From NCBI GenBank assembly GCA_000597885.1, contig CP004371.1:2930501-2994500 (forward strand): DNA of 64,000 nucleotides, given 5' to 3'. The translations under genes and the position numbers were made by a program. The notes under the pieces were generated by a model. It saw only the letters and a list, made by a program, of their open reading frames with translations. It was not told the origin of the DNA and ran no database searches. This document shows, piece after piece, positions 7,664-39,168 of the stretch. Position 1 is the stretch's first letter. Every line of letters starts with the position of its first letter. Source of the stretch: Flammeovirgaceae bacterium 311 (GTDB taxonomy: Bacteria; Bacteroidota; Bacteroidia; Cytophagales; Cyclobacteriaceae).

Positions 7664-7675
7664 ACAGCACAGTAT
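7664..7675 (+). promoter_or_regulatory. Recurrent PUL leader element, copy 1
   Basis: ACAGCACAGTAT, 11 of 12 matches to the consensus ACAGTACAGTAT seen before several PUL operons. It lies 89 bases before the start codon of the GH78-like gene and has the same orientation relative to that gene as the other copies have to theirs. Confidence 0.5.
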
Positions 7676-7763
7676 GCATCATTAAAAATAGTACCTTAGA
7701 TTTCATTCCCTAAGACCCTATTTGCCTGAAACCCAGACTTACCAGAACATAACAGAAGGGATC

Positions 7764-10142
7764 ATGAATCTGAAATTTTACACCCTGATCGTATTGCTCA
7801 CATGCAGCCTTCAATTGCAGGCCATGGTTGACTGGCAGGCACAATGGATAAGCTTTCCCAATCTTAATCCAGATTCGTATGCTGTGCTGCATTTCCGCAA
7901 CAGCTTTGAGTTAAGCGAAATTCCGGCACGGCTTCCCCTGCTCATTTCTGCCGACATTCGCTATAAGCTCTACATTAACGGAAAGTACCTGGGCCAGGGG
8001 CCTGCCAATAACGATCAGCGGCACTATGTGTATGATGAACATGATATTGCAACATCGCTCCGAAAAGGGAAAAATACGATAGCGGTTACCGTTTTCAGCC
8101 TGGCGGAAATGACTCCGCTCCGCTACGAAACCAGTGGGGCAAAGTTAATTGTACAGGCCAGCAATGATGCGCTGAGCAAGGTATTGAATACTGGCAGCGG
8201 AAACTGGCGTGTGAAACTGAATGAAGCGTACTCGCCCACCCGCAGAGGCAGAGAATTTGAGGTAATAAGCTACTTTGCCATGGGGGGAGGAGAAAAAATA
8301 AAAGCCGACCAATACCCCTGGGGCTGGAAGGAGCAGGGATTTGATGATGCTGGCTGGCCGGTTGCCATGGCAATAGCAAAGGGCGCTAATTACGGACACA
8401 AATATGAGTACGGCGCAGCAGATCTAAGCCTGCAGGCCCGCAGCATTCCCTTCATGGACGAAAGCTTTGAGCAACGGCCGGTTATGAGAAATACACCGGG
8501 CCCTTTAACCAAAGGTTTTGTGACTGCATGGCAAAAAAACAAGCCACTGACGATTCCTGCCAATACCGAAGCCACTCTTTTACTTGACCAGACCTACCTG
8601 ACAAAAGGCCATCCTTATTATACCTTTTCCGGAGGCAGAAATGCCGTGGTAAAGGTTGGTTATGCAGAAACATTATTCGTGGATGTTGAAGAGCATCAGC
8701 AGGGCCACAGAGATGTAGTAGATGGAAAAGAGTTTATTGGCCTTTCTGATATTTACCTACTGGACGGCGGGAAAGACAGAGAATTCTCTACCCTTATTCC
8801 ACGGGTATGGCGCTATATACAGGTAAAAGTTAAAACGGCCGATGAACCTTTAAGCTGGAACAGCTATCAGGCTACAAAATTTATTTATCCTTTCCGGGAA
8901 AATGCATCCTTTGCCTCAAATTTGCCTGTGCATAAGAGCATCTGGAATGTAGGCTGGCGAACAGCCCGCCTTTGTGCTGACGAAACCTATATGGATTGCC
9001 CCTATTATGAGCAGCTGCAATATGTGGGCGATACCCGTATCCAGGCCCTGATCTCCCTGTACGTATCGGGCGATGACCGGCTGATGAAGAATGCCATTAA
9101 CCAATTTGCCAACTCCATCACCGACGAAGGTATTACCCAAAGCCGTTTCCCCTCCAGCTCGCTTCAGTACATTCCGCCCTATTCGCTCTTCTGGGTAAAC
9201 ATGGTGCACGATTACCACATGCACCGGAAAGATGATGCTTTTACTGCTCAATACCTCCATCAGATAACTTCTGTTTTATTATGGTTCGAAACCAGGCTGC
9301 GTGAGGATAAGCTGCTGGGGCCTATGCCCTGGTGGTCGTATGTGGATGTTGTAGATGGCTGGACAAAAGCAAGCCCTCCGGGCTCATGGGAAGGTGGCTC
9401 TTTAATGCTGACTCTACAGTATGTATATGCGCTGCAGGATGCCATTGCCCTGCTTGAGCACCATCAGAAAGACGCCCTGGCAAAGTATTTCTCAGATCTG
9501 AAAAATAGTATTCAGCAGGCTGTGGTGGCAAAAGGCTATAATGCCGACAGCAGGTTATTTGCCGATACGCCCGATCAGGCATCCTACAGCCAGCACACAA
9601 ACATTATGGCCATCCTTACCGACACTGCCCCCATAAACCAGCAAGCTGCCATCTTTGAAAAGATAACCACTGATCCATCAGTAGCCAGAACGAACATCTA
9701 TTTTTCCTTTTACCTGCACAGGGCCGCCCAAAAAACGGGTAATGGCGCTTATTTTTTAAACAACCTGGACATATGGAAAAAGATGCTGAAACAAGGCTTA
9801 ACCACCTTTTCTGAAACCATGCAGCAGACCCGCTCCGACTGCCATGCCTGGAGCGCCAGCCCCAATTACGAATTCCTGAACCTAGTGTGTGGGATCCAGC
9901 CTGCTTCTGCCCATTTCGAATCAATAAGAATTGAGCCTAATCCAGGCAGCCTTCGTAAACTATCGGGCAAAATGCCTCACCCCAAAGGAAGCATAGGAGT
10001 AGATTTCTCCTTTGATAAGAATTCTGTAGCCGGAGAGATAGTGATTCCAGAAAATACACAGGCTACTTTTTACTGGAAAGGAAAAGAGGTGCCGCTGGTA
10101 CAGGGAAAAAATAGTATCAAAATTTCTAATTCCCTGCCCTAG
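7764..10142 (+). CDS. GH78-like alpha-L-rhamnosidase, secreted (copy 1)
   Basis: 792 residues from the ATG at 7764, chosen because it starts a clean signal peptide ('MNLKFYTLIVLLTCSLQLQA') and has AGAAGGG just upstream. The N-terminal half has the beta-sandwich pattern of GH78 ('DIRYKLYINGKYLGQGPAN'), followed by an (alpha/alpha)6 barrel. The catalytic motif 'DCPYYEQLQYVGD' gives D411, E416 and D423, with the same +5/+12 spacing as the catalytic D-E-D set of Bacillus RhaB. The Glu of 'TTFSE' (residue 684) stands where the proposed catalytic base lies, about 268 residues further on. The expected role is removal of alpha-L-rhamnose (or a related sugar) from glycans in the periplasm. It has a close paralogue on the other strand (16566-18947). 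Its own leader element and a convergent terminator show it is a single-gene unit. Confidence 0.85.
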   Translation: MNLKFYTLIVLLTCSLQLQAMVDWQAQWISFPNLNPDSYAVLHFRNSFELSEIPARLPLLISADIRYKLYINGKYLGQGPANNDQRHYVYDEHDIATSLRKGKNTIAVTVFSLAEMTPLRYETSGAKLIVQASNDALSKVLNTGSGNWRVKLNEAYSPTRRGREFEVISYFAMGGGEKIKADQYPWGWKEQGFDDAGWPVAMAIAKGANYGHKYEYGAADLSLQARSIPFMDESFEQRPVMRNTPGPLTKGFVTAWQKNKPLTIPANTEATLLLDQTYLTKGHPYYTFSGGRNAVVKVGYAETLFVDVEEHQQGHRDVVDGKEFIGLSDIYLLDGGKDREFSTLIPRVWRYIQVKVKTADEPLSWNSYQATKFIYPFRENASFASNLPVHKSIWNVGWRTARLCADETYMDCPYYEQLQYVGDTRIQALISLYVSGDDRLMKNAINQFANSITDEGITQSRFPSSSLQYIPPYSLFWVNMVHDYHMHRKDDAFTAQYLHQITSVLLWFETRLREDKLLGPMPWWSYVDVVDGWTKASPPGSWEGGSLMLTLQYVYALQDAIALLEHHQKDALAKYFSDLKNSIQQAVVAKGYNADSRLFADTPDQASYSQHTNIMAILTDTAPINQQAAIFEKITTDPSVARTNIYFSFYLHRAAQKTGNGAYFLNNLDIWKKMLKQGLTTFSETMQQTRSDCHAWSASPNYEFLNLVCGIQPASAHFESIRIEPNPGSLRKLSGKMPHPKGSIGVDFSFDKNSVAGEIVIPENTQATFYWKGKEVPLVQGKNSIKISNSLP

Positions 10143-10218
10143 GGTTCTATCCTGGCAGAGGCAGAAAACCCCTGCTGCTGCACGCATAGATGCCAGGTTG
10201 CTTCACTACGGTAGCAAA

Positions 10219-10287
10219 TAAGGCCGGCGGAAATATAAAACTGCCTAGAATTATTACCCAGAGCAGTTTTATTTTCCGCCGGCCTTA
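10219..10287. terminator. Large bidirectional terminator
   Basis: An about 24-bp nearly perfect stem (TAAGGCCGGCGGAAAAT-type arms, one base bulged) lies between the convergent GH78-like and Gfo/Idh genes. A/T-rich outer arms allow termination in both directions. Confidence 0.75.
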
Positions 10288-10399
10288 CATAAACCGGAAT
10301 GAATCATATTTAAGGCATTTCCGACTACTAATGCAGTAGCATTACATTACCTGAATGTTTTTATACCAGCAAGATAAAAGAAGCTAAAGGTATGCACAC

Positions 10400-11737
10400 T
10401 TATACCACAGGCTCCCAGCCCGGGGCATATTCACGTCTCCACATTTTCATGGCTTCTGCGTCATTTAAAATATGCCCGTTCTTCTGGTCTATATGGAGGG
10501 TTCTGCCAACTTCCTGGGAAATATTTCCATAATGACACAGCAGGCTGGTAATGGCTGCTTCATCTATCGGAGAATTAAGTTTTTCAGAATTCCGGATCGC
10601 ATTCACAAAATTGGTCATGTGATAATTATCCAAAGCGCCCTCGCCTGCGGTATTGGTGGTGGCACTGCTGTGCTCTTCCTTTATCTCTTTTACCAGCGTT
10701 CCCTTCTGATCAAAGACCTGGTAAACATTCCGGTCTACCAATACGGTGCCGTCAGTGCCGTGTATGGTAGCACCCCTGCCCCTATCGTAATAATTAAATC
10801 CGTTGCAGCTCTTTCCTTCCCAGGTGATCATTTTATTGTCGGCATATTCATAGCTCACTACCTGGGTATCGTAGAACTCCCAGTCATCATTATAGTGGAA
10901 CCTGCCGCCTGATGATTTTACCCGCTCGGGAATATCTACCCCCAGCGCCCAGCGGCAAATATCTATCTCGTGGGTACCGTTGTTATGTATCTCGCCGGTG
11001 CCGTAATTCCAGAACCAGTGCCAGTTGTAGTGCACCAGGTTATCCTGGTAGTCCTGCCTTGGTGCCGGCCCCTGCCACAGCTCCCAGTTGAGCCAGTCTG
11101 GCACAGCCACTTTTTTGCCTATACCAATAGAGCCCCGGTTATTGCTGTACCAGGCTTTGCCAAAATAAGGCGTGCCAATAATGCCCTCCCGGATTTCTTT
11201 TACGGCCTGAATGGAAGTAGGGGCAGAGCGCTGCTGATTACCCATTTGTATCACCCTGCCTGTTTTTTTCTGCACTGCCACCAGCAGTTCCCCTTCATAG
11301 GGATTATGGCTGCAGGGTTTCTCTACATACACATGCTTTCCTGCTTGGGCAGCCATAATAGCCATGGGAGCATGCCAGTGCTCCGGGGTGGCAATGGCTA
11401 CAGCATCAAAATCTTTTTTTTCGATCAGGGAGCGAAAATCTACAATGGCTTTAGGCTTTTTCCCGCCTCCATCCTGCACCATTTTACTTACCCCGTTCAA
11501 CACCCTGGAATCTACATCGCAGATGTAGCCAATGCTGGTATTAGGCGATGCCATGGCAGATTTCACGAGGGCTTTTCCCCTGTTGTTGATACCGGCCACA
11601 GCAAAATTAACCCTATCGTTTGCACCAATGATACGGGCATAGCTGCTTGCCGGAAAAGCCATAGCACCTAAAGAGATGCCTGCAGTTCCTAAGACTGCTT
11701 TTCTGAGAAAATCCCGGCGGGAATTATTAGCTTTCAT
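10400..11737 (-). CDS. Tat-exported Gfo/Idh/MocA-family sugar oxidoreductase
   Basis: 445 residues. The N-terminus carries a twin-arginine signal ('NNSRRDFLRKAVLGTAG'), so the protein would be folded with its nicotinamide cofactor before export. A Rossmann domain follows ('VNFAVAGINNRGKALV'), then 'VYVEKPCSHNPYEGE' with the EKP lysine typical of the family, and the C-terminal substrate domain with 'GEIHNNGTHEIDICRWALG', which supplies the catalytic His/Asp region. Family members oxidise a sugar hydroxyl, often at C3, or use a bound NAD redox cycle to cleave glycosides (GH109). It lies 6 bases downstream of the double DUF1080 gene. That pairing fits oxidation of a glycoside to a 3-keto form followed by DUF1080-catalysed cleavage. 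The substrate is unknown. Confidence 0.9.
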   Translation of the reverse strand: MKANNSRRDFLRKAVLGTAGISLGAMAFPASSYARIIGANDRVNFAVAGINNRGKALVKSAMASPNTSIGYICDVDSRVLNGVSKMVQDGGGKKPKAIVDFRSLIEKKDFDAVAIATPEHWHAPMAIMAAQAGKHVYVEKPCSHNPYEGELLVAVQKKTGRVIQMGNQQRSAPTSIQAVKEIREGIIGTPYFGKAWYSNNRGSIGIGKKVAVPDWLNWELWQGPAPRQDYQDNLVHYNWHWFWNYGTGEIHNNGTHEIDICRWALGVDIPERVKSSGGRFHYNDDWEFYDTQVVSYEYADNKMITWEGKSCNGFNYYDRGRGATIHGTDGTVLVDRNVYQVFDQKGTLVKEIKEEHSSATTNTAGEGALDNYHMTNFVNAIRNSEKLNSPIDEAAITSLLCHYGNISQEVGRTLHIDQKNGHILNDAEAMKMWRREYAPGWEPVV

Positions 11738-11743
11738 ATTCGT

Positions 11744-13165: not shown

Positions 13166-13245
13166 TGCGCTGATTCTGGTATAGATGAATTATATAATCT
13201 GCAAAAACTGTGGCCGGTAGCTTTGGCTTCACCCCCCGCAGGGAA

Positions 13246-13305
13246 CCACTCCGGATGGAGCCGCTCCGGATGGAGCCGCTCCGGATGGAGCCGCTCCGGA
13301 TGGAG
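13246..13305. repeat. Four tandem copies of a 15-bp repeat
   Basis: The unit CCGCTCCGGATGGAG occurs three times exactly, preceded by one copy with a single change (CCACTCCGGATGGAG). It lies 81-140 bases upstream of the DUF1080 gene start, in its likely 5' leader. Each unit contains the palindrome CTCCGGA/TCCGGA core, so stem-loops or a repeated protein-binding site are possible. Confidence 0.9.
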
Positions 13306-13535: not shown

Positions 13536-13686
13536 GAAATACTACACTTAACCAAACCAATCAACTTTAAACTTCTGCCTCTGCACCAAAACAGGTTTCA
13601 GAGAAATATCTTTCATCCTATATAGAATGTGTAAAACAGTACTTAATAAACTTTTATTGAATATAGGGGATCTCTGTTTTTAATCT

Positions 13687-13698
13687 GTTCTGTACTGT
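13687..13698 (-). promoter_or_regulatory. Recurrent PUL leader element, copy 2
   Basis: On the minus strand it reads ACAGTACAGAAC, 10 of 12 matches to the consensus, preceded by CCAT as in the SusC copy. It is unusually far (about 520 bases) from the DUF1080 start, with a hairpin in between, so its target promoter is uncertain. Confidence 0.35.
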
Positions 13699-13759
13699 AT
13701 GGTATGCTTGTGATTCTTTTTCAGCATCAACAGTTAAGTACTTTTTTTATCTGTGCTCC

Positions 13760-16565: not shown

Positions 16566-18947
16566 TCAATTAAGTGTATTTATATTTTTTCCGCCCGAAA
16601 GCGGATATGATTGATTTTTGTACTTTAAGACTCCTGTCAGGTTATGGGGCAATACTACCTCATACCTTAACCTTTCCTTTTTATCCTTTGTAAAAGACAC
16701 TGCAATTTCACCCATGTAATGCGGAATGGTGCCTGATGCTTTAGTCAGCTCCCCTAGTTGAGGTTCAATTTTAACAGTTTTAAAGCCCGGGGAGGAAGAA
16801 GTTACGCCGCAGACAATACTTAAAAAGTCGTACATCGGGTGGGCCGACCAGGCATGGCAATCCGAACGGCTTTCAATACCATGCTCTGGAAAGGTTGTGA
16901 GTCCATAATCGAGGAATGTCTGCCATTTCTCCATCAAAGCGGTTACTTCACCGCCTAAACCTGCTTTTTTCAGGGCCTGAAAAACATAGAAATCAAAGTA
17001 GAGCGAAGTTTGAATCAAGCTGCCGTCATCAATGATTTTCCTTGCTACTGCCTTTTCGGTTTGCGCATCGAACATGCCGGCCAGAATGGCAAAGCTGTTG
17101 GTGTGCCTGGAATATAATTGCTGATCGGGCGTCTCGGCCAGCAGTCCTTTATCTCTGTTCAAACAGAGCTTAAGTGTGTTTTCCTTCAGCTTTGCTGAAA
17201 CAGGCAGAAGATTTTCCGCATCGCAGGCATACCCATAATAGGTGAGCATTTCCGCTGCCCTGTCAATAGTGTAGGCTAATAAAACAGACATATGGGCAGA
17301 GCCGCCATCGCTGATCCCCGGAGGCGACCCATTCACAAATTTTGTTCCTCCATCAATATGATTCCAGTACGGCAAAGGGCCCAGCATTCCACTATCATCA
17401 ATCCTGCTTATAAACCAATCCAGGATAAACTTTACGCCTGGCATGTACTGCTTTACAAACCCACTGTCTTTGCCCAGCATGTGGTAATCGTGCAGCATGG
17501 AAATGTACAGGAGCGAAAAAGGAGGTATAATTTGTGTACCTGCTGCCGGGTGGTTGCTTTTTGTAAGGCCCATGGGTTGCATGGAAGCATAAAACTGTTC
17601 CAATGCATTTTTTACCAGCCGCTCGTCGCCTCCCACATACATAGAAATCAGGGCCTGGATGCGGGTATCGCCTATATACTGCAGCTGTTCGTAATAGGGG
17701 CAGTCCATATAGGTTTCCAGGGCACATAGCTGTGCGGTGCGCCAGGACACATCCCATATTTTCTCAAAGTCTTTTTTGCTGGATGTAAAAGTAGCTTTTT
17801 GCTCCAGGGGATAAGCGGTGTATAAATTTTTAAAACCATTGATGCTTAAGGGCTCATTCCCGGTGCTGACTGTTATTTTAACATAGCGGAAAACACGTAT
17901 CCATAGGGGCTCAAATAATCTATTACCGCCATCAGGCAAAAAAACATCGTAATAGCCTTTCATTACTTTTCCCCTCCACTCATCCCGGTTTCCTTTGCCA
18001 CCCTCCTCATTAAATAAAGCCTCCTGATACTGTATTTTTATTTTACTGCCCCTTCCTCCTGATACTAAAAGTTGCGGAAATCCCATTGTCAGCACCCCAT
18101 TATCCAGTAAAATTTCAGCTTGTGTATTGGGTGGAATTTGGGTTTGCAGCGAGCCCTTATAGGCTGATAGAGGATAAGAAAATCCCTTTACATCCAGGAG
18201 TTGGGGTATAGTTTCTAACTTTTGCTCCATCAGGGGAATCTTTCTGGCCTGGAGCATCCAGGGCGTTCCAACCCAGGTATCCAGTCCCTGGTGATTTCCC
18301 TTTCCTAATTTCCTGGCAGCCTGCCAGGCAGCATCATCATATGATAACAAATTCCAGCCCCAGGGATGCTTAAAACCATCAACACTGTCGGTGCCGCCTG
18401 CTATGTAGCCACCGCCAGCAATTCTTCTATTAATGGCAATACCATGGTAGCCTCTATCTTTTATAATCTTCCATGAATTATTGGTATTTGCTACCTGCTC
18501 TGCTGGTGAATTGCCCTGCAGGATAAAAGCAGTTTTGTGAGAGATCTGCCGGGCACCTCTCAGACTTCCCATATTCCAGACCTGTGAGGCAATGATATTT
18601 TTACCTTCCTTCAGGTAAGGGGCAATATCGGTGGTTTCGTAGTTCCAGTTAAACATATCGCCCACGGCAGGACCCCAAATAACCAGTTTCTCATTCACCC
18701 ATAAGCGATACCGGTTATCGGCAGAAACGTGTATGATGAAGCTTTTAGGTACCTCCTTCAGCTCCACTGCTTTCCTGAAGTAAAACACTCCATAATCTGA
18801 ATCTCCAGGCCCTATCCAATCTGCAAAAGAGCTGTCATTAAGCTGCGCGGGCAGGCTAACAAATGGCTTCGACTGCCCGAACAATGCTAATTGGAAGAGT
18901 AGCAGCGGGATAATAAGGACAGATGTTTTGATAGCTCCCATGGTCAT
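16566..18947 (-). CDS. GH78-like alpha-L-rhamnosidase, secreted (copy 2)
   Basis: 793 residues with signal peptide 'VLIIPLLLFQLALFGQ'; a second in-frame ATG two codons later could equally be the start. It is collinear with the GH78-like protein at 7764-10142, sharing 'SADNRYRLWVNEKL', the catalytic motif 'DCPYYEQLQYIGD' (D415, E420, D427) and the downstream 'TTFPEHGIESRSDCHAWSA' with the candidate base Glu. All expected catalytic acids are therefore present. It begins 3 bases after the stop of the GH30-like gene, which implies tight coupling. The two GH78-like copies sit in separately transcribed units of the same PUL, suggesting different linkages or different stages of rhamnose removal. Confidence 0.86.
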   Translation of the reverse strand: MTMGAIKTSVLIIPLLLFQLALFGQSKPFVSLPAQLNDSSFADWIGPGDSDYGVFYFRKAVELKEVPKSFIIHVSADNRYRLWVNEKLVIWGPAVGDMFNWNYETTDIAPYLKEGKNIIASQVWNMGSLRGARQISHKTAFILQGNSPAEQVANTNNSWKIIKDRGYHGIAINRRIAGGGYIAGGTDSVDGFKHPWGWNLLSYDDAAWQAARKLGKGNHQGLDTWVGTPWMLQARKIPLMEQKLETIPQLLDVKGFSYPLSAYKGSLQTQIPPNTQAEILLDNGVLTMGFPQLLVSGGRGSKIKIQYQEALFNEEGGKGNRDEWRGKVMKGYYDVFLPDGGNRLFEPLWIRVFRYVKITVSTGNEPLSINGFKNLYTAYPLEQKATFTSSKKDFEKIWDVSWRTAQLCALETYMDCPYYEQLQYIGDTRIQALISMYVGGDERLVKNALEQFYASMQPMGLTKSNHPAAGTQIIPPFSLLYISMLHDYHMLGKDSGFVKQYMPGVKFILDWFISRIDDSGMLGPLPYWNHIDGGTKFVNGSPPGISDGGSAHMSVLLAYTIDRAAEMLTYYGYACDAENLLPVSAKLKENTLKLCLNRDKGLLAETPDQQLYSRHTNSFAILAGMFDAQTEKAVARKIIDDGSLIQTSLYFDFYVFQALKKAGLGGEVTALMEKWQTFLDYGLTTFPEHGIESRSDCHAWSAHPMYDFLSIVCGVTSSSPGFKTVKIEPQLGELTKASGTIPHYMGEIAVSFTKDKKERLRYEVVLPHNLTGVLKYKNQSYPLSGGKNINTLN

Positions 18948-22431: not shown

Positions 22432-22747
22432 TTGTGAGATGGTATGGTAGTGTAACTGTTGCTTGATGGACGGCTTAGTAAAAGATCCTCATGAAAATCA
22501 GACCAGCTGTTATTCAGCTCTTAAAATATAAGCTATATAAGGCTTTAAATACAGCTTTCTATACTGTACTGTTAGGTGTTTGGTAATGCATAGCTGTTTT
22601 AATACCTTCCCGGCATTATACTGGCTTCAGCAGGGATACAGAAAATCATTTACAACGGGCAGCCTATATACCCAAACCACGGCAACTTTCTGGAACGTAG
22701 ATACAGGGTACACTGGCAGGCAGTGCACAGCCTTAATAATTGAATTC
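22432..22747. other. Leader region of the esterase-GH30-GH78 operon
   Basis: 316 bases without a gene. The only marked signal is the exact leader element at 22561-22572. No terminator hairpin for the upstream GH37-like gene is visible, so some readthrough from that operon is possible. Confidence 0.55.
22561..22572 (-). promoter_or_regulatory. Recurrent PUL leader element, copy 3 (exact)
   Basis: The minus strand reads ACAGTACAGTAT, identical to the SusC copy, and is preceded by CCTA. It lies 130 bases upstream of the O-acetylesterase start. Confidence 0.6.
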
Positions 22748-26941: not shown

Positions 26942-27281
26942 ATTGTATTACTTCTGCTCCCTTCAGGTACCGTGCTTTTTATGCGGCAGAAATGGACCTG
27001 CCAACAAGTTTAATTTTCTAAAATTTAAAAAAGATGCCCGAGAGTCTCATGCTGTACTGTTAGGGACCACAATGGACAATGGATTATAGACACTGGACAG
27101 GATCTGTCTGGTTGGGCACCAGCATCTATATCTATATTCCTTATACCCTAAATTTTGTACTGCACCAGTGGCCTACAAGGTGCCGCACCAGCCACCATTC
27201 ACTAACCACAGGCATACCAGTGCAGGATGAAAGCCTGCTCCTTTTTTTGATTATTTCCCGTTTACCATATCATTCAGCACC
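26942..27281. other. Divergent promoter region between two PUL units
   Basis: 340 bases separating the leftward ADP-ribosylglycohydrolase operon from the rightward GH30-like gene. It holds one leader element (27049-27060) oriented toward the leftward operon. An open frame at 27079-27285 overlaps the GH30 start and has no protein-like features. Confidence 0.55.
27049..27060 (-). promoter_or_regulatory. Recurrent PUL leader element, copy 4
   Basis: The minus strand reads ACAGTACAGCAT (11 of 12), preceded by CCCTA. It lies 108 bases upstream of the ADP-ribosylglycohydrolase-like gene and about 220 bases upstream of the divergent GH30-like gene. Confidence 0.55.
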
Positions 27282-29865: not shown

Positions 29866-31479
29866 TTAATAACCAGGGTTATTTTGCATAATGGCACGAT
29901 TCCTGTCAATTTCAACCTGTGGAATTGGAAAGAGCAGGTTAGTACTTACATCGAATTCAACAGGTGAAGACAATTCGGTACTGAAATGTTCATCACTACC
30001 ATCCCAGCCAGACAAGTCGATATCGCCGGCCACGTGCCATCTTTTAAGGTCCCACCAGCGCTGTCCTTCACCGGCAAGCTCTACAAAACGCTCATTCATG
30101 ATCCACTCCATGATCATGTCCTCATCGGTTACGGCCAGATCATAATCTTCAAGGCCAGTACCATCGCTTAAACCATACTCAATAGCCCACTCTCTGGTAC
30201 GTGCTCTTATCTTATTCAATTCTTCTATGGCCAGTTGCGGCTGATTGGTTTTCAGATAAGCTTCAGCGGCTATCAACACTAAATCTGCCATGCGTAACAC
30301 TCTTTCGTTGTTTACAGAGCCTCCGCCACCACGTACATCCACAACACCTGCTCCAGTAGCCTCGTCAGCAACATCAACATTGCCAAGCCAGTATTTCTGA
30401 AAGATCCTACCCTCTTCGCCGTCGTCAGGGTTGATAAACACCATCAATCTTGGGTCATTGCCAAAATTATTTTTTATTTTATCGGTCAGCAGAAATCTGG
30501 TGGTGGCACCGGCATTAGCCCAGCCGGGAGTTCCTGGCTGCATCATAAAGCCGCGGTAAATACTCATGTTTTCCACTCCTCGCCAGGCACCATCGTTATA
30601 TAGGGCCAGGTTGTTCAGGTTTGGATTATCAGCCTGTATCTCAAACAATGATTCCTGGTTATTCTCGTGGTATGCGCTAAAGTTATGGACAAAGTTTGGC
30701 ACAAGCTGCGCAGTAATTTCGTTGTACACCTGGAGTGCTGCTGAATGATCGGACATGCTTCCGAAATGGTTAGCGCGAAAAACCAAAGCCTTTGCCATCA
30801 GTCCACGGGCAGAGTTCTTGGTTGCTCTACCGGAAAATTCTGAAGCCCAGGTGTCTGGTAAAATTGGTAAAGCTGCCTCTAAGTCAGCAATTACCTGGTC
30901 AAGCACTACGGCTGGTTCGCTTAGGGGCTTGTTCATATCGTCCCCGGGTGCAAATCTATCCTCAATTACTACGGCCCGGCCAAAGACATTGAATAAGATC
31001 CAATGTGCATAAGCGCGTAGAAAGAGTGCTTCACCCTCCATCAGGCGAATTTCATCTGCTCCTCTTACGGTAGTTAAATCGTCATTTCTAACGTGATCAA
31101 TGATTACGTTGGCCCGGGCAATCATTTTATAAGAGGCTCCCCAAACCCTTTCCATTTGCTCGTTATTCGGATTTAAAGAATCGTCGAATAATTCGACAGC
31201 CCTTCTGTTCCCATTTGTTTCTGTAAGATCGTCGCCGGGCAACAGCCAGGTACTATGGGCCCACTGGTTTGACCCGGATGTGAAGGAAAGATTGCCATAA
31301 TGGTAATAATCATACAGGGCCGCATAAGCACTTGCCAAAGCCGCTCTGTAGTTCACATCCTGGTTAAATAAGCTTTGTTCGGTTAGCCCTAGCGGATCTT
31401 CGTCGATAAGCTTTGGATCGCAGCCAAAAACAGCGGTAGCTGCCAGGCCCATGAAAATATTTTTTATATAATTTTTCAT
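29866..31479 (-). CDS. SusD/RagB-family glycan-binding lipoprotein
   Basis: 537 residues with lipobox 'AATAVFGC', so it is anchored at the outer surface next to SusC. The N-terminal 'LIDEDPLGLTEQSLFN' and 'YRAALASAYAALYDYYH', the TPR-like middle ('MEGEALFLRAYAHWILFNVFG') and the C-terminal 'RVLRMADLVLIAAEAYLKTN...AIEELNKIRARTREW' are classic SusD features. It binds the oligosaccharide and forms the lid of the SusC channel. It starts 29 bases after the SusC stop codon, in the usual SusC-SusD order, and a strong terminator follows it. Ligand-binding aromatics cannot be assigned without a structure. Confidence 0.96.
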   Translation of the reverse strand: MKNYIKNIFMGLAATAVFGCDPKLIDEDPLGLTEQSLFNQDVNYRAALASAYAALYDYYHYGNLSFTSGSNQWAHSTWLLPGDDLTETNGNRRAVELFDDSLNPNNEQMERVWGASYKMIARANVIIDHVRNDDLTTVRGADEIRLMEGEALFLRAYAHWILFNVFGRAVVIEDRFAPGDDMNKPLSEPAVVLDQVIADLEAALPILPDTWASEFSGRATKNSARGLMAKALVFRANHFGSMSDHSAALQVYNEITAQLVPNFVHNFSAYHENNQESLFEIQADNPNLNNLALYNDGAWRGVENMSIYRGFMMQPGTPGWANAGATTRFLLTDKIKNNFGNDPRLMVFINPDDGEEGRIFQKYWLGNVDVADEATGAGVVDVRGGGGSVNNERVLRMADLVLIAAEAYLKTNQPQLAIEELNKIRARTREWAIEYGLSDGTGLEDYDLAVTDEDMIMEWIMNERFVELAGEGQRWWDLKRWHVAGDIDLSGWDGSDEHFSTELSSPVEFDVSTNLLFPIPQVEIDRNRAIMQNNPGY

Positions 31480-31508
31480 ATTGATTACACTAATTTCAGA
31501 TCTGGAGA

Positions 31509-34500
31509 TTAAAATCTAACATTCAGGCCGGCACTTACTGTTTTTTGCAGCGGATATCTGTCGTTCACCGGATCCAGACCAGACCAGCTGAACATATAAA
31601 GGTTATTCTGGCCGCCTACGTACACCCGCACTGAGCTTATGAGATTGGTTTTGCTTAACAAAGAAGCAGGTAAGGAATAACCCAGCTGCCAGTTATTCAG
31701 GCGGAAGAAAGCAGCACTCTCTACCCAGCGATCTGATAAACGGTTGTTTTGAGCAGGGTCGTTAATAACTGCACGCGGCATGGTGGTGCTTGGATTTTCA
31801 GGAGTCCATCTGTTAAGGGTACTGGCAGAATAGTTAACCCCTGCACCAGACATGCCTTCGAGTGCTCTTCTAACTTCATTGTACCGATCTACATCGCCCT
31901 CGCCATAAAAGTTAAAGGAAACATCAAATCCTTTCCAGCCACCATTCAGGTTAATTCCGTAGGTATGGCCCGGGATGGTATTGCCTATCTGGGTCTGGTC
32001 GTAATTATTCAGAACGCCATCGGGTGTTTCGCTATAAAATGGTTCTTCATCTGTTGGGGGGCCACCAATATCGCGGAACCATATATCGCCAGGTCCTACA
32101 AAACTTTCATTACTTACAATCCGGTCGTCTATTTGTTCATTGTAGTAGTTGGTAACCTCCTGCTGCGACTGGAAAATACCACCCATCTGGTAACCCCAGA
32201 TGTGGCCTACGGGTCTGCCAATTTCAACCCTGCCGGCACCAGTGGTTAAGGGCTGATTGAGATACAGGGCTGTTACTTCGTTTTTCAGGAAGCTGATGTT
32301 ACCAGAAATACCATAGGTGAATTCACCCAGCCTGTCGTTGAATCCCAACTGAAGATCTATTCCTTTATTATCCAGGGAGCCAATATTTTGCAGTGGGTTT
32401 AACAAACCAACTGATAGTGGTATATCTACAGTTTGTAAAATATCATCAGTTGTTCTTTTAAATACCTCAAAGGTTAAGTTAAGCCTGTTCTTGAACATGT
32501 AAGCATCGAAACCGGCATAGGATGTTGTTACCACCTCCCAGGATAATTCTCTGGTAGGATAACCCTGAACCCGCCTGCCTGTAGTGTAGTTACCTTCGCC
32601 AGGTACGTTGCTGGAACCCCATGCGTATGATGAAACGCCAGTGGCACCTGATAAGAATGCATATTGTCCTACAGCAGCCTGGTCATTACCTGCCTGGCCC
32701 CATCCACCTCTTATCTTCAGGTCATCCAGGAAAGGAATGGAACCTTGCATAAATGGCTCAGCACTAATCCTCCAGGCACCGGATAAGGAGTAGAAGTTAC
32801 CCCATTGGTAGTCATCATCAAAACCATTACTACCGTCTCTTCTGTAAGAGCCATCGATATAATACTTGTTATTGTAAGAATAACTTGCCCTGCCAACTAA
32901 ACCAAACCAGTATCTGCGATCCCAGCCATAAAAAGAGCCGTTAGCACCTACTGCCGGGTCCCATCCCTGCCGGTATGGATCCTCGGTAATGTTTTCAATG
33001 CTATTGGCAGAAAGGTTTTGATTTTCTCTGGTATGCCGCTGGTCCTGCACACCGGCAGTCAGAATCATATTATGCTTACTGGCAAAAGTACGATTGTAAA
33101 TGGCTGTAAAATCTGCCTGGTAGTTAAAGATGTTATTGATACGATGCTCTGCTCTGGCCAGTGTATTCGGAAAACCAGGAATTTCTGCCTGAGGGTTATT
33201 TCCTGCTATTCTGAAAATATTTACCCTTGAAATCGTATTCAGGTTGTACCTGTCCTGTGTGCCGTAATCAAGGTTCAGACTACCTCTTAAACTTAAACCT
33301 TCAATTGGAGTCAGTTCTGCATATAGCTGACCAATCTGTCTGCTAAGCTTAAAACTGTTGGTATTCAAATCGGTTATTGCCAGATAATTGTCATTTGTTC
33401 CCTGACCGTATATTCTGTGAGGGCGCCAGGTTGAAACGGTACCACCCAGATAAGGATCTATAACTTCCTGATAGCCATAAACATTATTTGGGTCACGCAG
33501 TGGCTGCCAGGGTGCTACATCGGCCATTTCCTCCAGGTTAAGCCCAATCAGGGAGGTTTGGTTGGTATATTTATAATTAACCCCAACCTTAAGCCAATCA
33601 GTAACGTTGGTATTAAGATTTATGGCTGCATTATAACGTTTAAGGTCGTTGCCGTACATCATGCCTTCCTGCTGAAAAAAGCCAATGGAAGCATAGTAGT
33701 CAACTGCATCGGTACCGCCGGAAACCTTCACATCATGCTGCTGATTAACAGCATTTTTGATAACTAGTTCGTCCTGCCAGTTATAGGTAGTGCGGTCGCT
33801 GATATAATAGGGACTTGTAGGATCAAACTGCGGACTCCTGCTTTGCAGCCTTTCCGAATCGGTACCCAGAGTTCTGCCATACAGCTGATTTTCGATGGTA
33901 ACATCCGGATTCTGATTGTTAGCAAACATCTCCTCGGTTATATCCACAAACTGCTGCGTATTCAGCATATCGAAGGTAGGGATGTTTTGCACTCCATATC
34001 TGGAGTTAAGTTCTACAGTAGGAGTCCCTTTTTTACCTTTTTTAGTTGTGATAAGAATTACGCCATTGGCACCACGGCTACCATAAACGGCTGCAGCAGA
34101 GGCATCTTTCAATACTGTGATTGACTCAATATCATTTGGGTTAATCAGGTTAAACATGTTTGGAGGAGTGGCCAGACCAAAACCTGCAATAACATCCTGA
34201 TTACCAGCACGGGGAGGCTCAAAGATCTGACCGTCGATTACATACAGCGGCTGAGAATCGCCATTCCAGGTACCTATACCCCTTACAAAAATTCTGGGCG
34301 CTTCGTTTGGGTTACCACTGGAGTTTATAACGCGAACACCGGCAGCGTTACCCTGCAGGGCAAACTGAGGCGAAGCTGACTGTATTTTTGAAATTTCGGC
34401 CTCTCCTACGGTTGAGATGGAGCCAGTAAGGTCTTTTCTTTTTCTTTCTCCAAAACCAATCACAACCACCTCATCCAGCTGGTCAATATCTGTCTCCAGG

Positions 34501-34787
34501 GCAATGTTGATGGTTGTTTGATTTCCAACAGTAACTTCTCTGGTTTGGTAACCTATAAAGTTAAACTGCAGCACTGCCTCCCGGGAAGGCACCTGTACGC
34601 TGTAGTTACCCTCATTATCTGTGGTGGTACCTGTGCCGGTACCTTTCACCAGTACGGTTACACCGGGTAGTCCCGAATTGTCTTCTGCATCCGTTACCCT
34701 ACCGGATATTCTTTGTTGTTGCTGTGCATGGACCTGCAGAACAAACAGGCTCAACAGCACACACCAGGCGGATAGAAATGTTCTCAT
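31509..34787 (-). CDS. SusC/RagA-family TonB-dependent outer-membrane transporter
   Basis: 1092 residues with signal peptide ('LLSLFVLQVHAQ'). A carboxypeptidase-regulatory-like domain (~25-105) has 'ISGRVTDAEDNSGLPGVTV'. The plug has 'LDEVVVIGFGERKRKDLTGS' and 'PLYVIDGQIF...NDIESITVLKDASAAAVYGSRGANGVILITTK', and the 22-strand barrel ends in a terminal Phe ('VSAGLNVRF'). No N-terminal STN signalling domain is present, so regulation should go through the HTCS rather than an anti-sigma factor. It imports oligosaccharides released at the cell surface using TonB energy. It is the only SusC gene of the window and has an exact copy of the PUL leader element 64 bases before its start. Confidence 0.97.
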   Translation of the reverse strand: MRTFLSAWCVLLSLFVLQVHAQQQQRISGRVTDAEDNSGLPGVTVLVKGTGTGTTTDNEGNYSVQVPSREAVLQFNFIGYQTREVTVGNQTTINIALETDIDQLDEVVVIGFGERKRKDLTGSISTVGEAEISKIQSASPQFALQGNAAGVRVINSSGNPNEAPRIFVRGIGTWNGDSQPLYVIDGQIFEPPRAGNQDVIAGFGLATPPNMFNLINPNDIESITVLKDASAAAVYGSRGANGVILITTKKGKKGTPTVELNSRYGVQNIPTFDMLNTQQFVDITEEMFANNQNPDVTIENQLYGRTLGTDSERLQSRSPQFDPTSPYYISDRTTYNWQDELVIKNAVNQQHDVKVSGGTDAVDYYASIGFFQQEGMMYGNDLKRYNAAINLNTNVTDWLKVGVNYKYTNQTSLIGLNLEEMADVAPWQPLRDPNNVYGYQEVIDPYLGGTVSTWRPHRIYGQGTNDNYLAITDLNTNSFKLSRQIGQLYAELTPIEGLSLRGSLNLDYGTQDRYNLNTISRVNIFRIAGNNPQAEIPGFPNTLARAEHRINNIFNYQADFTAIYNRTFASKHNMILTAGVQDQRHTRENQNLSANSIENITEDPYRQGWDPAVGANGSFYGWDRRYWFGLVGRASYSYNNKYYIDGSYRRDGSNGFDDDYQWGNFYSLSGAWRISAEPFMQGSIPFLDDLKIRGGWGQAGNDQAAVGQYAFLSGATGVSSYAWGSSNVPGEGNYTTGRRVQGYPTRELSWEVVTTSYAGFDAYMFKNRLNLTFEVFKRTTDDILQTVDIPLSVGLLNPLQNIGSLDNKGIDLQLGFNDRLGEFTYGISGNISFLKNEVTALYLNQPLTTGAGRVEIGRPVGHIWGYQMGGIFQSQQEVTNYYNEQIDDRIVSNESFVGPGDIWFRDIGGPPTDEEPFYSETPDGVLNNYDQTQIGNTIPGHTYGINLNGGWKGFDVSFNFYGEGDVDRYNEVRRALEGMSGAGVNYSASTLNRWTPENPSTTMPRAVINDPAQNNRLSDRWVESAAFFRLNNWQLGYSLPASLLSKTNLISSVRVYVGGQNNLYMFSWSGLDPVNDRYPLQKTVSAGLNVRF

Positions 34788-35303
34788 AGAGTGGTGGTTT
34801 AATTTGATCAGTTATTTTAGACCAACTTAGCCATAAGATTTCCCCTCTGTATACTGTACTGTATGGGCTTTGTGCATTTTGTGCCATAAAATATTATATT
34901 CCCTTACCATTTATAGTATAACATTCTCCCTTTCCCCTCCATGAGGCCCTTTTACCATCGGTATTATTAAGTTTTCTGTAAAATCAGCCAAAAAAATCGA
35001 TTGCGGAAAGGTAAAAAGTGCGCTGCTACGGCAGGCACTTTGGCAATCATTATGTGTTAAAGGGAGCTGTTACTGCTTATTAGCACTTGGATGTGTTTTC
35101 CAAAAGCAGCCGGATTCATCGGACTTGCTTTCAGGGCAGGAAGGAGGGTAAAGCAGCTATCGGTGCAGTAATTTATTATGGCCGGCAGCTAGTATATCTA
35201 GTAAATACCATGCTATACTGATTTGGTCTTCTTTTGCCGGCTTCCCCAGCAGGTGCAGGGAAGGCAGCAGGCGTACAGGCAGAAAGGCACGAGTTTTCTT
35301 TAT
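34788..35303. other. SusC leader and intergenic region
   Basis: 516 bases without a gene. The leader element (34851-34862) lies close to the SusC start. The remainder carries no clear hairpin or repeat; a weaker partial match to the element (GCTATACTGAT) occurs near 35212-35222. Confidence 0.5.
34851..34862 (-). promoter_or_regulatory. Recurrent PUL leader element, copy 5 (exact)
   Basis: The minus strand reads ACAGTACAGTAT preceded by CCCAT, identical in its 12-base core to copy 3. At 64 bases before SusC it is the copy closest to a start codon. Confidence 0.6.
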
Positions 35304-36515
35304 CTAGAATTTTACTTCTACTGGTGAAGCGATGCGTTTGGCAAAGTTTGCCAGGTACTGATCCCATTCTTGGGGAGTCTTAAATTGCCCGCTTTTATTC
35401 CAGCCAAAGCCTGCCCAGTAGGTAAGCTTATTTTGTTGCGGATTGGCCAGCACCAGCAGGTGGCTCTGGTCTTTGGTTGTAACTTTATGCTCTTTGTATT
35501 CCGCTACTCTGGCAGGATCTATCACAAGCCCCACACCCAGCTCAGAACCATCCATAGGCTCCCAATACCTGAACCATCCTTCGTCCGGATTAGCATTTAT
35601 AGTCCCCTCCTGCTCGTGCAGGGTCAAGCCAACGGCCGCATTAGGCAATGGCTGATCGCTCTCCAGCACTACTTCGTAGCGGCTTAGGTTGCTGCCCAGG
35701 TCCAGGCTAATGCGCTTGGTTTCCCTGATGGTGCGTTCTCCGGCCTGCCAGGGTGCATAGCTTAGCTCAAATATGGTTCTGATTGGGCCGGTGGCAATAG
35801 TTTGATGACTGATAAAGTTTTTTGAAACATACAGCGAATCATTCTCCCATACTCCTATACCGCCAACACCCCTGCTATCGCCTACATGGTAAGGATCATA
35901 GCCTTCGCCGGAATCGATATGATAAGCACCGGGAGATTTAAGATGATTTGCATACCACTTATCGATAATGGGATACTCCACCCTCTTTAGCCAGGCATCC
36001 ATACCGCTGGTAAGGGTGCCGCCCGGCTCACCAGATTCTGTGATCCGCTGCGCTTCCGGACCATAGGTGCGGAAGGCCACCCGGTCGTTCTCCCAGGTAT
36101 AATCATCGATTCTTTCGGGCACAAACCTGGAGTAGGTGCTGATTTCACTGCCGGGCTGCAACGCTTTTCCCCCTGCTCTTCCTTCAATGGTAAACTTTTT
36201 TTCGGCATTTGGTGCCAGGTCTGTCTGAAACAGGATTTCATCTATGCTTCCATCGCCATCCATATCTACCGCCTGGCTAAGCAATACTTCCTCCCCGCCT
36301 TCTTCTTGGATCAGCAGGTTTTCAACACCAAACTTCCCTATCAGCGCCTCTAACTCTTTTGCCGGAATACTGATGGTTTCCCGCTGCCGCTCCTGATCAA
36401 GTGTATTTTTTACAGTGAAATTTTTCTGGTTTTCTTCCTCCTGGCAGGCAAACAGCAGGGGGAGCATTAGGATGATTACAGCAAACCGGTTATTTTCTTT
36501 CAGTAATGTAAACAT
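35304..36515 (-). CDS. DUF4861-family PUL lipoprotein
   Basis: 403 residues from the ATG at 36515, which opens a signal peptide with lipobox 'MLPLLFAC'; the frame continues upstream for 42 residues without signal character. The chain matches DUF4861: 'DMDGDGSIDEILFQTDL' in the N-terminal beta domain, then 'YTWENDRVAFRTYGPEAQ', 'GTLTSGMDAWLKRVEYPIIDKWY', 'YHIDSGEGYDPYHVGDSRG' and 'TYWAGFGWNKSGQF'. The family is frequent in PULs next to uronyl hydrolases; its reaction is not established. The conserved Asp, His and Glu residues suggest an enzyme. It is the last gene of the SGNH-GH88-DUF4861 operon. Confidence 0.82.
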   Translation of the reverse strand: MFTLLKENNRFAVIILMLPLLFACQEEENQKNFTVKNTLDQERQRETISIPAKELEALIGKFGVENLLIQEEGGEEVLLSQAVDMDGDGSIDEILFQTDLAPNAEKKFTIEGRAGGKALQPGSEISTYSRFVPERIDDYTWENDRVAFRTYGPEAQRITESGEPGGTLTSGMDAWLKRVEYPIIDKWYANHLKSPGAYHIDSGEGYDPYHVGDSRGVGGIGVWENDSLYVSKNFISHQTIATGPIRTIFELSYAPWQAGERTIRETKRISLDLGSNLSRYEVVLESDQPLPNAAVGLTLHEQEGTINANPDEGWFRYWEPMDGSELGVGLVIDPARVAEYKEHKVTTKDQSHLLVLANPQQNKLTYWAGFGWNKSGQFKTPQEWDQYLANFAKRIASPVEVKF

Positions 36516-36794
36516 AAACCTAAGGTAAAAGGCAGGTGGTAAAATTATTCTCTCTTTGCAGAAAGGCATAAGGCCCGCTAAGAAAGGGAAAATAACAAGC
36601 ACCCCTTTAGAAAACAAACCAGTTTCTGAACAATTTGGCAAACTCCGGCTAAGCTTGTGCCCTGTAGTATCCTGACTCCTATAGGGAGTGTGTATAAAGG
36701 AATGAGGATGTTAAGCTATTTTAAAAAAACGGACTGATAACTCGCAGGATCAATCCGGTTAAACCAGATTTTATATTTTCTTAGGCTTCCTGCC

Positions 36795-37985
36795 CTAAAG
36801 GCTTGTTTGCTCCTTTTTCTCCCTGTAGCGAAGCATTGCTTCCAGGTAATAGTAATCGGCATAGTTCAGGGGCTTATCCACTTCGGAATTTACAGGTTTG
36901 TAGCCCGTGCTGTGTTTTAAGATAAAGCCCTGATTAGAGCCGGGCGTGGCCAGATAGGCGGGAGAAGAAAGGCTCTTCAGCATAGCTTCGGCAGCCTGCA
37001 GGTACTCCTCCCGATGGGTGTTGGTATAATCACTTAGCTCCAGCAGAGCAGATGCTACCAACGCAGCAGCAGAGGCATCGCGTGGTTCATCGGGAATACC
37101 GGGGGCATCAAAATCCCAGTAAGGCACTTTATCCTCCGGCAGGTTAGGGTGGTTCAGATAATAAAGTGCGATTGCCTCTGCCTGCTCCAGAAAACGCGGA
37201 TCTCTTGTTTCCCTGAAACAAAATTTATATCCATACAAACCCCAGGCTTGGCCTCTTGCCCAGGCAGATTCATCCGCATGGCCCTGAAAGGTCTCCTGCT
37301 TACGCACAGCTCCGCTGATGGTATCATAATCAACCACATGGAAAGAGCTGAAATCGTTGCGAAAATGATTGTTCATGGTGGTAAGCGCGTGGTTATACGC
37401 AATGTCATAAAAAGACTGATCACCACTTTCCCTTGCCGCCCAGAAGAGCAGTTCCAGGTTCATCATATTATCAATGATTACAGGGAAGCTCCAGCGGTTT
37501 CTGGCCCAGTCCCAGGAGCGGATTGCTTTTACCCGCGGATTATAGCGTGAAGCAAGCGAACGGGCTCCCTCCAGCAATATGGCACGATATTCCTGATCGC
37601 CGGTAAGGCGGTAGCCGTTCCCAAAGCTGCAGTAGAGCATAAAACCAATGTCATGGGTACCCCGGTTATGCTGCTGCTCTGCCAGGCCTGCAGACCATCT
37701 TCTTGCCTGATCTTCCCATTTCGGATCTCTGGTGTACTCGTACATATACCATAAAGAACCAGGAAAAAACCCACTGGTCCAGTCAGAGGCCTCTACCAGG
37801 TGCAGGCTGCCGTCGGGGTTAACAGAGCGTGGGTAGCTGAGGGTGTCATCCAGCATCTGTACAGCATATGCCAGCTGCTCCCTGGCCTGGTTCAGGCTGT
37901 TGGTCACCCAGTCATCCTGCTGCGGTTTGGATTGGCAGGCACTAAAAATAATGAGCACAAGTATAGATAGAGAATACTGCTTCAT
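36795..37985 (-). CDS. GH88-family unsaturated uronyl hydrolase lipoprotein
   Basis: 396 residues from the ATG at 37985, which opens the lipoprotein signal 'SILVLIIFSAC'; 18 upstream in-frame residues are a less likely start. The (alpha/alpha)6 barrel carries 'GTHDIGFML' with D112 and 'VIIDNMMNLELLFW' with D172, matching in spacing the two essential Asp residues of Bacillus unsaturated glucuronyl hydrolase. It also has 'QGHADESAWARGQAWGLYGY' and 'PRDASAAA'. The enzyme hydrates the 4,5-double bond of unsaturated uronic acids at chain ends, releasing them. This implies that the substrate contains hexuronate and is first cut by a polysaccharide lyase, yet none is recognised in this window. Confidence 0.9.
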   Translation of the reverse strand: MKQYSLSILVLIIFSACQSKPQQDDWVTNSLNQAREQLAYAVQMLDDTLSYPRSVNPDGSLHLVEASDWTSGFFPGSLWYMYEYTRDPKWEDQARRWSAGLAEQQHNRGTHDIGFMLYCSFGNGYRLTGDQEYRAILLEGARSLASRYNPRVKAIRSWDWARNRWSFPVIIDNMMNLELLFWAARESGDQSFYDIAYNHALTTMNNHFRNDFSSFHVVDYDTISGAVRKQETFQGHADESAWARGQAWGLYGYKFCFRETRDPRFLEQAEAIALYYLNHPNLPEDKVPYWDFDAPGIPDEPRDASAAALVASALLELSDYTNTHREEYLQAAEAMLKSLSSPAYLATPGSNQGFILKHSTGYKPVNSEVDKPLNYADYYYLEAMLRYREKKEQTSL

Positions 37986-38078
37986 AAGGTAACTAAGCAT
38001 CAGTAAGCAAAATATGTAAAGCAGGCAAAGCCTGAGCAATTGGAGAAATTGCCTGTCAGAAGTGTGGCAGAAAACAGT

Positions 38079-38774
38079 TTAATCCTTGCGGGCAGTATCC
38101 ATGTAGGGCTCCAGCACGGTTTTCCAGATAGCATAGCCTTCTGAATTCATGTGCAAATTATCTTTCAGGAAAATATTGTCATACACTACCCCGTTTTCAT
38201 CCAGCATGGCCGTCCATACATCGGCATACATGGTGTTTTTTGTTTTATCAGCGTAGGCTTTCAGCTCCCTGTTCAGCGCCTCATATTTATCTTTCATGGC
38301 CCAGCGTGCTACACTTGGTTTCGGAGAAATAAAAACCACCGGCACTCCCGGAAGGGCTTTGGCAATTTCCTCACGCAGCTGAATGGCCTTCTTTAATATT
38401 TCTTTTGCATCTTCTCCTGAAGCCACGTCATTATCACCCTCGTAAATAAAGATTTTTGAAGGTTTATAGGGGTAGATCACCCTGGGGGCATAATGGAGCA
38501 GGTCGGTAAAGTTTGACCCTCCAAAGCCTCTGTTCAGCACCTGATGCTCCGGAAAATGGTTTGCCAGATCTTTGTACATCACAATGGAAGAGCTTCCTGT
38601 AAACAAAATCGCCCCTTTCTCCGGAGGGTTGGCCTGATCCTGCTTTTCAAAATTTCGGATAGTTTCCTCCCAGCGCAGCGGACCTTTTTTCTCCTGTGCA
38701 AATAAGGAGACAGAGGTGCCAAGCATCAGAAAGATGCCAAGGAAGATGCATAAGAGGGTTCTGTTATACTTCAT
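38079..38774 (-). CDS. SGNH/GDSL-family esterase, secreted
   Basis: 231 residues with signal peptide ending 'SVSLFAQ'. The SGNH blocks are present in order: block I 'ILFTGSSSIVMY' (catalytic Ser), block II 'LNRGFGGSNFTDL' (Gly), block III 'IYEGDNDVA' (Asn) and block V 'FLKDNLHMNSEGY' (Asp and His). Proteins of this size are common in PULs as acetyl or other acyl esterases. It is the first gene of the operon with GH88 and DUF4861. A diverged copy of the PUL leader element lies about 250 bases upstream. Confidence 0.88.
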   Translation of the reverse strand: MKYNRTLLCIFLGIFLMLGTSVSLFAQEKKGPLRWEETIRNFEKQDQANPPEKGAILFTGSSSIVMYKDLANHFPEHQVLNRGFGGSNFTDLLHYAPRVIYPYKPSKIFIYEGDNDVASGEDAKEILKKAIQLREEIAKALPGVPVVFISPKPSVARWAMKDKYEALNRELKAYADKTKNTMYADVWTAMLDENGVVYDNIFLKDNLHMNSEGYAIWKTVLEPYMDTARKD

Positions 38775-39168
38775 ACAGAAAATAAATAGTTTATTGATGA
38801 TTCTGCTTAACGTGCCACTGCCAGTCGCACTGCTTAGAATCTTACTTATTACTTATTCTTATATCAGCCTTATTAAGGGCAGCTGTATCCAACAGAATTT
38901 GCTGCTCAAATAAAGGAGAACAGGAAAAAAACAGAATATACAAAAACCATTATTAGTACGCCGGCATTTTGCTATTCTTTCAGGTACTACTCAAAAATAA
39001 TCAAAGTTAGCATGGCTGGCATCCTGCACTGTACCGTATAGCATCCATAACAGCTAAAACCTGTTCCGGACAGGCATCAGCCAGTATCACCAGGCAGAAA
39101 CACATCACCTTTTACCCCTTTAGCTAAATTAACCTGTCCGGATTCCGGTTGCTTTCGTAGGAAAAGGT
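38775..39168. other. Divergent region at the right border of the PUL
   Basis: 394 bases separating the last PUL operon (leftward) from the rightward alpha/beta-hydrolase gene. It holds the most diverged leader element (39026-39037). No hairpin terminator or repeat stands out. This is where PUL-type content stops. Confidence 0.5.
39026..39037 (-). promoter_or_regulatory. Recurrent PUL leader element, copy 6 (diverged)
   Basis: The minus strand reads ACGGTACAGTGC, 9 of 12 matches, about 250 bases before the SGNH esterase gene. On its own it would not be convincing; position and orientation agree with the other copies. Confidence 0.35.

Follow-up and report, generated by a model that had tools for sequence, protein, structure and literature searches.

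A predicted GntR-type operator at promoters of a polysaccharide utilisation locus and of rhamnose genes in Bacteroidota

What reads a short, oriented sequence that recurs ahead of six operons of a polysaccharide utilisation locus (PUL), and what would its binding achieve there? The question is raised by a stretch of 64,000 nucleotides from Flammeovirgaceae bacterium 311 (contig CP004371.1, positions 2,930,501 to 2,994,500), hereafter called the window. A preliminary description of this DNA had placed a 12-bp element in the leaders of the PUL operons and proposed as its binder either a GntR regulator or the AraC domain of a hybrid two-component system (HTCS) protein. The six 12-mers are present, matching the consensus at 11, 10, 12, 11, 12 and 9 of 12 positions, and a shared, oriented element does head PUL operons. 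Our analysis leads us to think, with good but not complete confidence, that each of the six sequences is a GntR-type operator, most likely that of the regulator GntR1 encoded in the window, and probably acts as a class-II activator site in a rhamnose-linked regulon (Table 1). The sites, their spacing, their orientation and their association with GntR and rhamnose genes are direct results of computation.

A 20-bp direct repeat at a fixed promoter position

The element is longer than first described: it comprises 20 bp rather than 12, followed by a -7-like box 19 bp downstream. It consists of two 8-bp half-sites in direct orientation and 10 bp apart, which therefore lie on the same helix face. 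The consensus among relatives is CAKGAYAG-TA-CAGGAYAG and the window form, CCWWACAGTACAGNAT, is found in four of the six sites. Tandem half-sites had been proposed already, and this was borne out by the sites of relatives, which are 10-bp direct repeats; a palindromic, GTAC-centred reading, judged by eye, was dropped for the same reason. De novo expectation-maximisation on the upstream regions of 28 rhaEW operons, with the window left out and the rha loci of this genome and genus included, returned aACAGgACAGTaCAGGATAG and assigned a site in 25 of the 28. Its log-likelihood ratio was 257.7, compared with 59.3-74.5 for five letter shuffles that were given 40 starts instead of the 120 of the real set. 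Columns 7-18 of the 20-bp motif are the original 12-mer. At the last site the element is present, but the original register was five bases off, and on the 20-bp frame the 12-mer is 39021-39032 (10/12), within 39019-39038.

Within the window, the 12-mer has 16 matches at up to two mismatches against 3.06 expected (0 of 100 shuffles reach 16), and across the 6.67 Mb genome it has 35 matches at up to one mismatch against 12 for the reversed pattern. Five of these 35 fall within the window, four being sites of the preliminary description and one lying inside a gene. For a control set of 234 genes from this genome, no 300-bp upstream region holds a match of at least 11/12, four hold at least 10 and 24 at least 9. 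The sequence CCWWACAGTACAG occurs six times in 6.67 Mb, four of them in the window, and its reversed control once. These counts are partly circular, and a binomial on them is no independent test, because both consensuses were drawn from window sites. Moreover, the 12-mer by itself is unspecific, as 20 of its 35 one-mismatch matches fall within genes.

The independent evidence for the element is a matrix built from relatives, together with the spacing of the box, and it is on these, not on the counts of a window-derived consensus, that a chance origin was rejected. The matrix holds 20 sites, all from outside this genome and genus; three rows lacking a site, two with weak sites and a near-duplicate had also been taken out. 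At a score of at least 10, its intergenic matches number five in the window, three in the genome's own rha locus and two in a 380 kb control, and with genes included the numbers are six, five and 21 (19 in genes). The five intergenic window matches are three of the described sites plus 36657 and 47109, which were not kept as further operators since their boxes match only 3 of 6 letters.

The 19-bp offset, which the preliminary description overlooked, was first seen in relatives and then at the window sites. At all six, the -7-like box TAnnTTTG starts exactly 19 bp downstream and matches three to six of six letters, summing to 28 of 36, a value reached in none of 2 million draws from intergenic positions of the window. 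In an alignment of the six sites with their surroundings (190 columns), an identity of at least 5/6 is found only in motif and box columns. The same arrangement holds in 42 rhaEW or rhaT promoters picked by motif score, of which two belong to this genus. In 29 of the 42, TA..TT stands exactly at +19 behind the 20-mer, and no other offset between 10 and 29 has it in more than two; none of the 42 has TTG at the -33 place. For the 40 promoters outside this genus, T occupies +23 in 39 and +24 in every one. The range taken for the -33 element is the generally known one. With the -7 box placed as in Flavobacterium psychrophilum, where it is described at -12 to -5 (PubMed Central article PMC9723704), the operator extends from about -51 to about -32. 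This is class-II promoter geometry, with a site centred near -41.5 at a fixed distance from the core promoter and no -33 element.

Combining motif and box gives a more selective signature. Matches scattered through genes, which the preliminary description had named as telling against the element, characterise the 12-mer and partly the 20-bp matrix, but not the motif plus box. Forty neighbourhoods from the family contain 50 motif-plus-box matches, with at least one in 30 of them; 45 are intergenic and face a same-strand gene, three are otherwise intergenic and two lie in called genes. By downstream gene, 19 precede rhaEW or rhaT (mostly training sites), one lies in an over-long rhaEW start (L120), two have no downstream gene called and 28 precede other genes. 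Pfam searches of eight genes behind sites gave GH88 twice, GH78, GH106, a SusC-like protein, DUF4450, a sub-cutoff GH20 and one without a match. Genes for alpha-L-rhamnosidases, GH88 proteins and SusC-like proteins thus follow the motif near GntR relatives. If the element were instead recognised by a sigma factor itself, or were an accidental ACAG repeat, it might also stand at such a promoter-like distance from a -7-like box, and the many 12-mer matches inside genes would fit. The 20-bp length, the de novo recovery at rha promoters and the scarcity of motif plus box elsewhere (one match, inside a gene, in the 380 kb control of this genome and 0.4 in 233 kb of shuffled letters) make this explanation barely credible.

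Table 1. Predicted operators, their boxes and the genes discussed (window positions unless a locus is named; box scores are matching letters out of six).
Feature	Position	Strand	Remarks
Predicted operator AGGCACACAGCACAGTATGC	7658-7677	+	before GH78-like gene; 7664-7675 of the preliminary description; matrix score 5.1
Box TAGATTTC	7697-7704	+	5/6
Predicted operator TACCATACAGTACAGAACAG	13685-13704	-	before 3-keto-disaccharide hydrolase / Gfo-Idh-MocA genes; matrix score 17.7; 520 bp to next long gene
Box TATATTCA	13658-13665	-	4/6
Predicted operator CACCTAACAGTACAGTATAG	22559-22578	-	before SASA esterase / weak GH59-like / GH78-like genes; matrix score 9.5
Box TATATAGC	22532-22539	-	3/6, weakest of the six
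Predicted operator TCCCTAACAGTACAGCATGA	27047-27066	-	before ADP-ribosyl-GH / YdjC / trehalase-like genes; matrix score 1.5
Box TAAATTTT	27020-27027	-	5/6
Predicted operator GCCCATACAGTACAGTATAC	34849-34868	-	before susC/susD; matrix score 11.8
Box TAAGTTGG	34822-34829	-	5/6
Predicted operator TACGGTACAGTGCAGGATGC	39019-39038	-	before GDSL / GH88 / DUF4861 genes; matrix score 21.2, best of the window
Box TATTTTTG	38992-38999	-	6/6
GntR1, predicted cognate regulator	6372-7418	+	GntR winged helix plus LacI-type effector domain
GH78-like alpha-L-rhamnosidase gene	7764-10142	+	in-frame ATG at 7764; listed open reading frame starts at TTG 7722
Second GH78-like alpha-L-rhamnosidase gene	16566-18947	-	
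susD- and susC-like genes of the PUL	29866-34787	-	
GH88-family gene	36795-38039	-	
HTCS regulator	1553-5836	+	rejected as binder of the element
GntR3, third paralog	L091 9202-10242		

The site originally given at 13687 contains the element and lies 520 bp ahead of the next long gene. A 15-bp tandem repeat, CTCCGGATGGAGCCG, with 3.8 copies and 100% matches, is located at 13249-13305, between this operator and the 3-keto-disaccharide hydrolase gene, which are roughly 500 bp apart.

GntR1 and the rhamnose genes across genomes

The view that a GntR regulator is the likely binder gains from the co-occurrence of such regulators with rhaEW and from the presence of the motif near GntR and rhamnose genes. 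GntR1 is a member of the family by its N-terminal GntR winged helix-turn-helix (Pfam PF00392, E 1.9e-10, 40.7 bits against a cutoff of 27). Its match to Peripla_BP_3 is below the cutoff (21.9 against 26.5 bits), no NCBIfam model reaches its cutoff, and PDB sequence matches are mostly GntR winged-helix proteins, including AraR. The AlphaFold model, with a mean predicted local distance difference test score of 90.3 and a predicted template modelling score of 0.73, has LacI-family proteins as its top Foldseek matches (CcpA, SghR, LacI and PurR), and points to a C-terminal LacI/periplasmic-binding fold.

Among 98 genomes of the family, 49 carry a GntR relative at E 1e-40. The rhaEW gene is found in 46 of these 49 (27 of 30 searched for it and 19 of 19 others in which it was seen in the GntR neighbourhood) compared with 3 of the 49 without, for which Fisher's test gives 2.7e-20 when related genomes are treated as independent. 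Relatives of GntR1 occupy 18 loci, and rhaEW lies inside the fetched stretch in 8 of the 16 checked, L004 and L005 having been left out. Genomes with GntR yielded 28 rhaEW loci, two of them incomplete. The motif scores at least 10 at 22 of the remaining 26, or at 20 of 24 once two loci from training genomes are removed, although at least one of the 24 shares its genus with a training genome. By comparison, 4 of 231 control upstream regions reach 10 and none reaches 14. Two GntR-negative rhaEW loci have no site and a third sits at a contig edge. Sites therefore precede rhamnose catabolic genes to which the regulator is itself linked, as expected for a rhamnose regulon, and the element is not the marker of PUL operons only that it was first taken to be.

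This association extends beyond the family, where 16 GntR matches occur in 11 genomes (13 of 149 genomes of the class were matched). Twelve of these loci were fetched and contain nine motif-plus-box matches, eight of which precede rhaEW or rhaT; three of these eight fall within gene calls that are too long. Where rha genes are linked, motif plus box is present at 7 of 8 loci. In the genome's own rha locus, AACAGGACAGTACAGGACAA and its box TATATTGA precede a gene that weakly matches NCS1 symporters, and AACAGGACAGACCATGATAC and its box TAATATTG precede rhaEW.

Four rhaEW loci of GntR genomes lack the motif, namely L154, L155, L175 and L181, and they also bear on the second binder that was proposed. 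For L181, there is a site that falls just within a gene called too long (L214 11036). In L154 and L155 rhaEW adjoins an AraC gene, and genome G007 has both a rhaEW beside GntR with a site and a rhaEW beside AraC without one. These AraC-family neighbours, with no GntR gene or operator, were observed at L215 9826-12929 (the locus of L155) and L216 9315-12613 (that of L154). An operator for the AraC domain of the HTCS, or for another AraC-family PUL regulator, would have been plausible on general grounds, as AraC proteins bind direct repeats, often at class-II positions, and an HTCS is encoded in the window. However, the motif tracks GntR and is missing from the two AraC-adjacent loci, and the repeat spacing does not fit. 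The period of about 21 bp expected of an HTCS operator is absent: identity at -21 and +21 is at most 5/12 at the six sites (7/12 at -22 for one), and the HTCS motifs described in PMC3878776 have long spacers such as 12-9-12 bp. The HTCS was rejected as binder on these grounds, and we consider an AraC-type operator very improbable.

Further observations concern genes of the rha locus and genes behind other sites of this kind. In the own rha locus, L054 11650-13101 encodes a 483-amino-acid protein with a sub-cutoff NCS1-symporter match; it follows the best matrix match of the locus and is a candidate rhamnose transporter. Genes of similar length, 467-483 amino acids, also follow some sites of relatives. 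Two genes with LUD/LutB_C and CCG domains (L054 3928-6110; lutB- and lutA-like, lactate utilisation) directly adjoin rhaK in the genome's own rhamnose operon. Elsewhere in the genome, candidate sites with a 5/6 box at +19 precede a DASS-type transporter (L025 3991-4010) and a 758-amino-acid protein without a Pfam match (L046), and their membership of the regulon is unproven.

Activator or repressor, and which GntR protein

If a GntR protein binds the element, we consider it fairly probable that it acts as a class-II activator, because the repeat presents one face, is oriented, keeps a fixed distance to the -7 box and has no -33 TTG. GntR1 carries a LacI-like domain for sugar binding, and its family is linked to the catabolism of L-rhamnose. 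Upon binding L-rhamnose or a rhamnose-derived ligand, it would bind the operator head-to-tail in the place where a -33 element would be. The bound regulator could then recruit housekeeping RNA polymerase to promoters without their own -33 box, switching on the PUL so that the cluster degrades rhamnose-containing sugars.

The same GntR operator could instead serve a classical repressor, which would occupy the -33 region until a sugar ligand releases it. In favour of this, several proteins that are related in sequence and have known structures bear the name of repressors (AraR, 4egy, and YvoA), and a title within the reference list of PMC9296495 names a GntR repressor that acts on alginate genes in Zobellia. 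Against it, repressor site positions usually vary, whereas here the spacing to the -7 box is fixed, 45 of 48 intergenic matches are oriented toward a same-strand gene and the -33 place has no TTG. Overall, a repressor appears unlikely, both as a reading of the locus and once GntR binding is granted, though it is the rival to be taken most seriously.

We infer that GntR1 rather than a paralog would bind in the window, and several points weigh against this or against the activator operator as a whole. The genome carries three full-length GntR paralogs, so there are several candidate binders, and its own rhaEW lies with GntR2, not GntR1, while the 19-kb neighbourhood of GntR3 has no motif-plus-box site. 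Within the window, the relatives' matrix gives low scores to two of the six sites (7658 and 27047), the box is weak at 22559 and 13685, and the additional matrix matches at 36657 and 47109 carry poor boxes. Of the six, just 39019 and 13685 pass the cutoffs set for motif plus box. Across genomes, 10 of the 40 family neighbourhoods have no such match, including the closest relatives of GntR1, L111 and L112; 8 of 18 named loci have one (those of Rufibacter precede a SusC-like gene). It is also missing from four out-of-family loci without rha genes and from L229, likewise out of the family, there is no site at the rhaEW of G084 (L175), and the genomes are not independent samples.

The neighbourhoods of L111 and L112 contain no rhaEW within the fetched stretch, and in their genomes the site is found at an unlinked rhaEW instead. 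In the tree, GntR1 groups with these two (100/98), GntR2 with a same-genus protein in another clade and GntR3 elsewhere. L111 and L112, whose GntR is 66% identical to GntR1, have CATAACAG at rhaEW, and this variant is absent from L113, L145 and L174 of the same clade. A GntR1-specific half-site is therefore only suggestive.

Relation to known regulators and wider meaning

Among known regulators, AraR of Bacillus subtilis shares with GntR1 a GntR winged helix joined to a LacI-type effector domain, and the sequence matches of GntR1 include the DNA-binding domain of AraR (4egy). AraR binds palindromes and represses arabinose genes, in contrast to the direct repeats, activator-like geometry and rhamnose genes seen here. 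The motif is a 10-bp direct repeat and does not follow the palindromic NyGTNxACNy form of the GntR family. As described in PMC4494728, GntR motifs are mostly palindromes with few direct-repeat exceptions, among them FarR, NagQ and NanR, which belong to the FadR and HutC subfamilies and bind other sequences. Reported rhamnose regulators are LacI, DeoR and AraC proteins (Rodionova 2013, PMC3870299), and the string 'gntr' does not occur in the main text of that paper. These regulators likewise control RhaEW-type rhamnose catabolism, and the DeoR type binds direct repeats with a 10-11 bp period, but they are of protein families other than GntR. In the account of PMC3878776, RhaR of Bacteroides is an AraC protein, while FucR (BT1272) and ManR (BT2103) are GntR regulators of sugar use in Bacteroidota that differ in serving fucose and mannose. 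The HTCS regulators treated there also have direct-repeat motifs at PUL operons, and differ in their AraC domain and long-spaced repeats.

A sugar-responsive regulon is thus of a known type, and the searched literature suggests that its GntR rhamnose variant is new: no GntR rhamnose regulator with this motif was found in titles and abstract openings of open-licence PubMed Central papers, RegPrecise not having been searched. A broader proposal, for which we see the chances as evenly balanced, is that a GntR/LacI chimera serves as a class-II activator whose 10-bp head-to-tail repeat replaces the -33 box of housekeeping promoters. It would control a rhamnose and rhamnoglycan regulon in several Bacteroidota families, swapping with AraC control. 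In this genome the duplicate GntR1 would have split off and, with CCWWACAGTACAG as its own variant of the operator, would govern an entire PUL.

Accounts of PUL regulation in Bacteroidota centre mostly on HTCS, SusR and extracytoplasmic function (ECF)/anti-sigma systems (as in PMC3878776). If a GntR operator stands at a constant place in the promoters of six PUL operons and is common to rhamnose catabolism, the monosaccharide set free would itself stimulate degradation of the polymer. Additional members of the regulon can be predicted from the signature of operator plus box, and the rhamnose pathway is a clear example in which GntR and AraC regulators replace one another.

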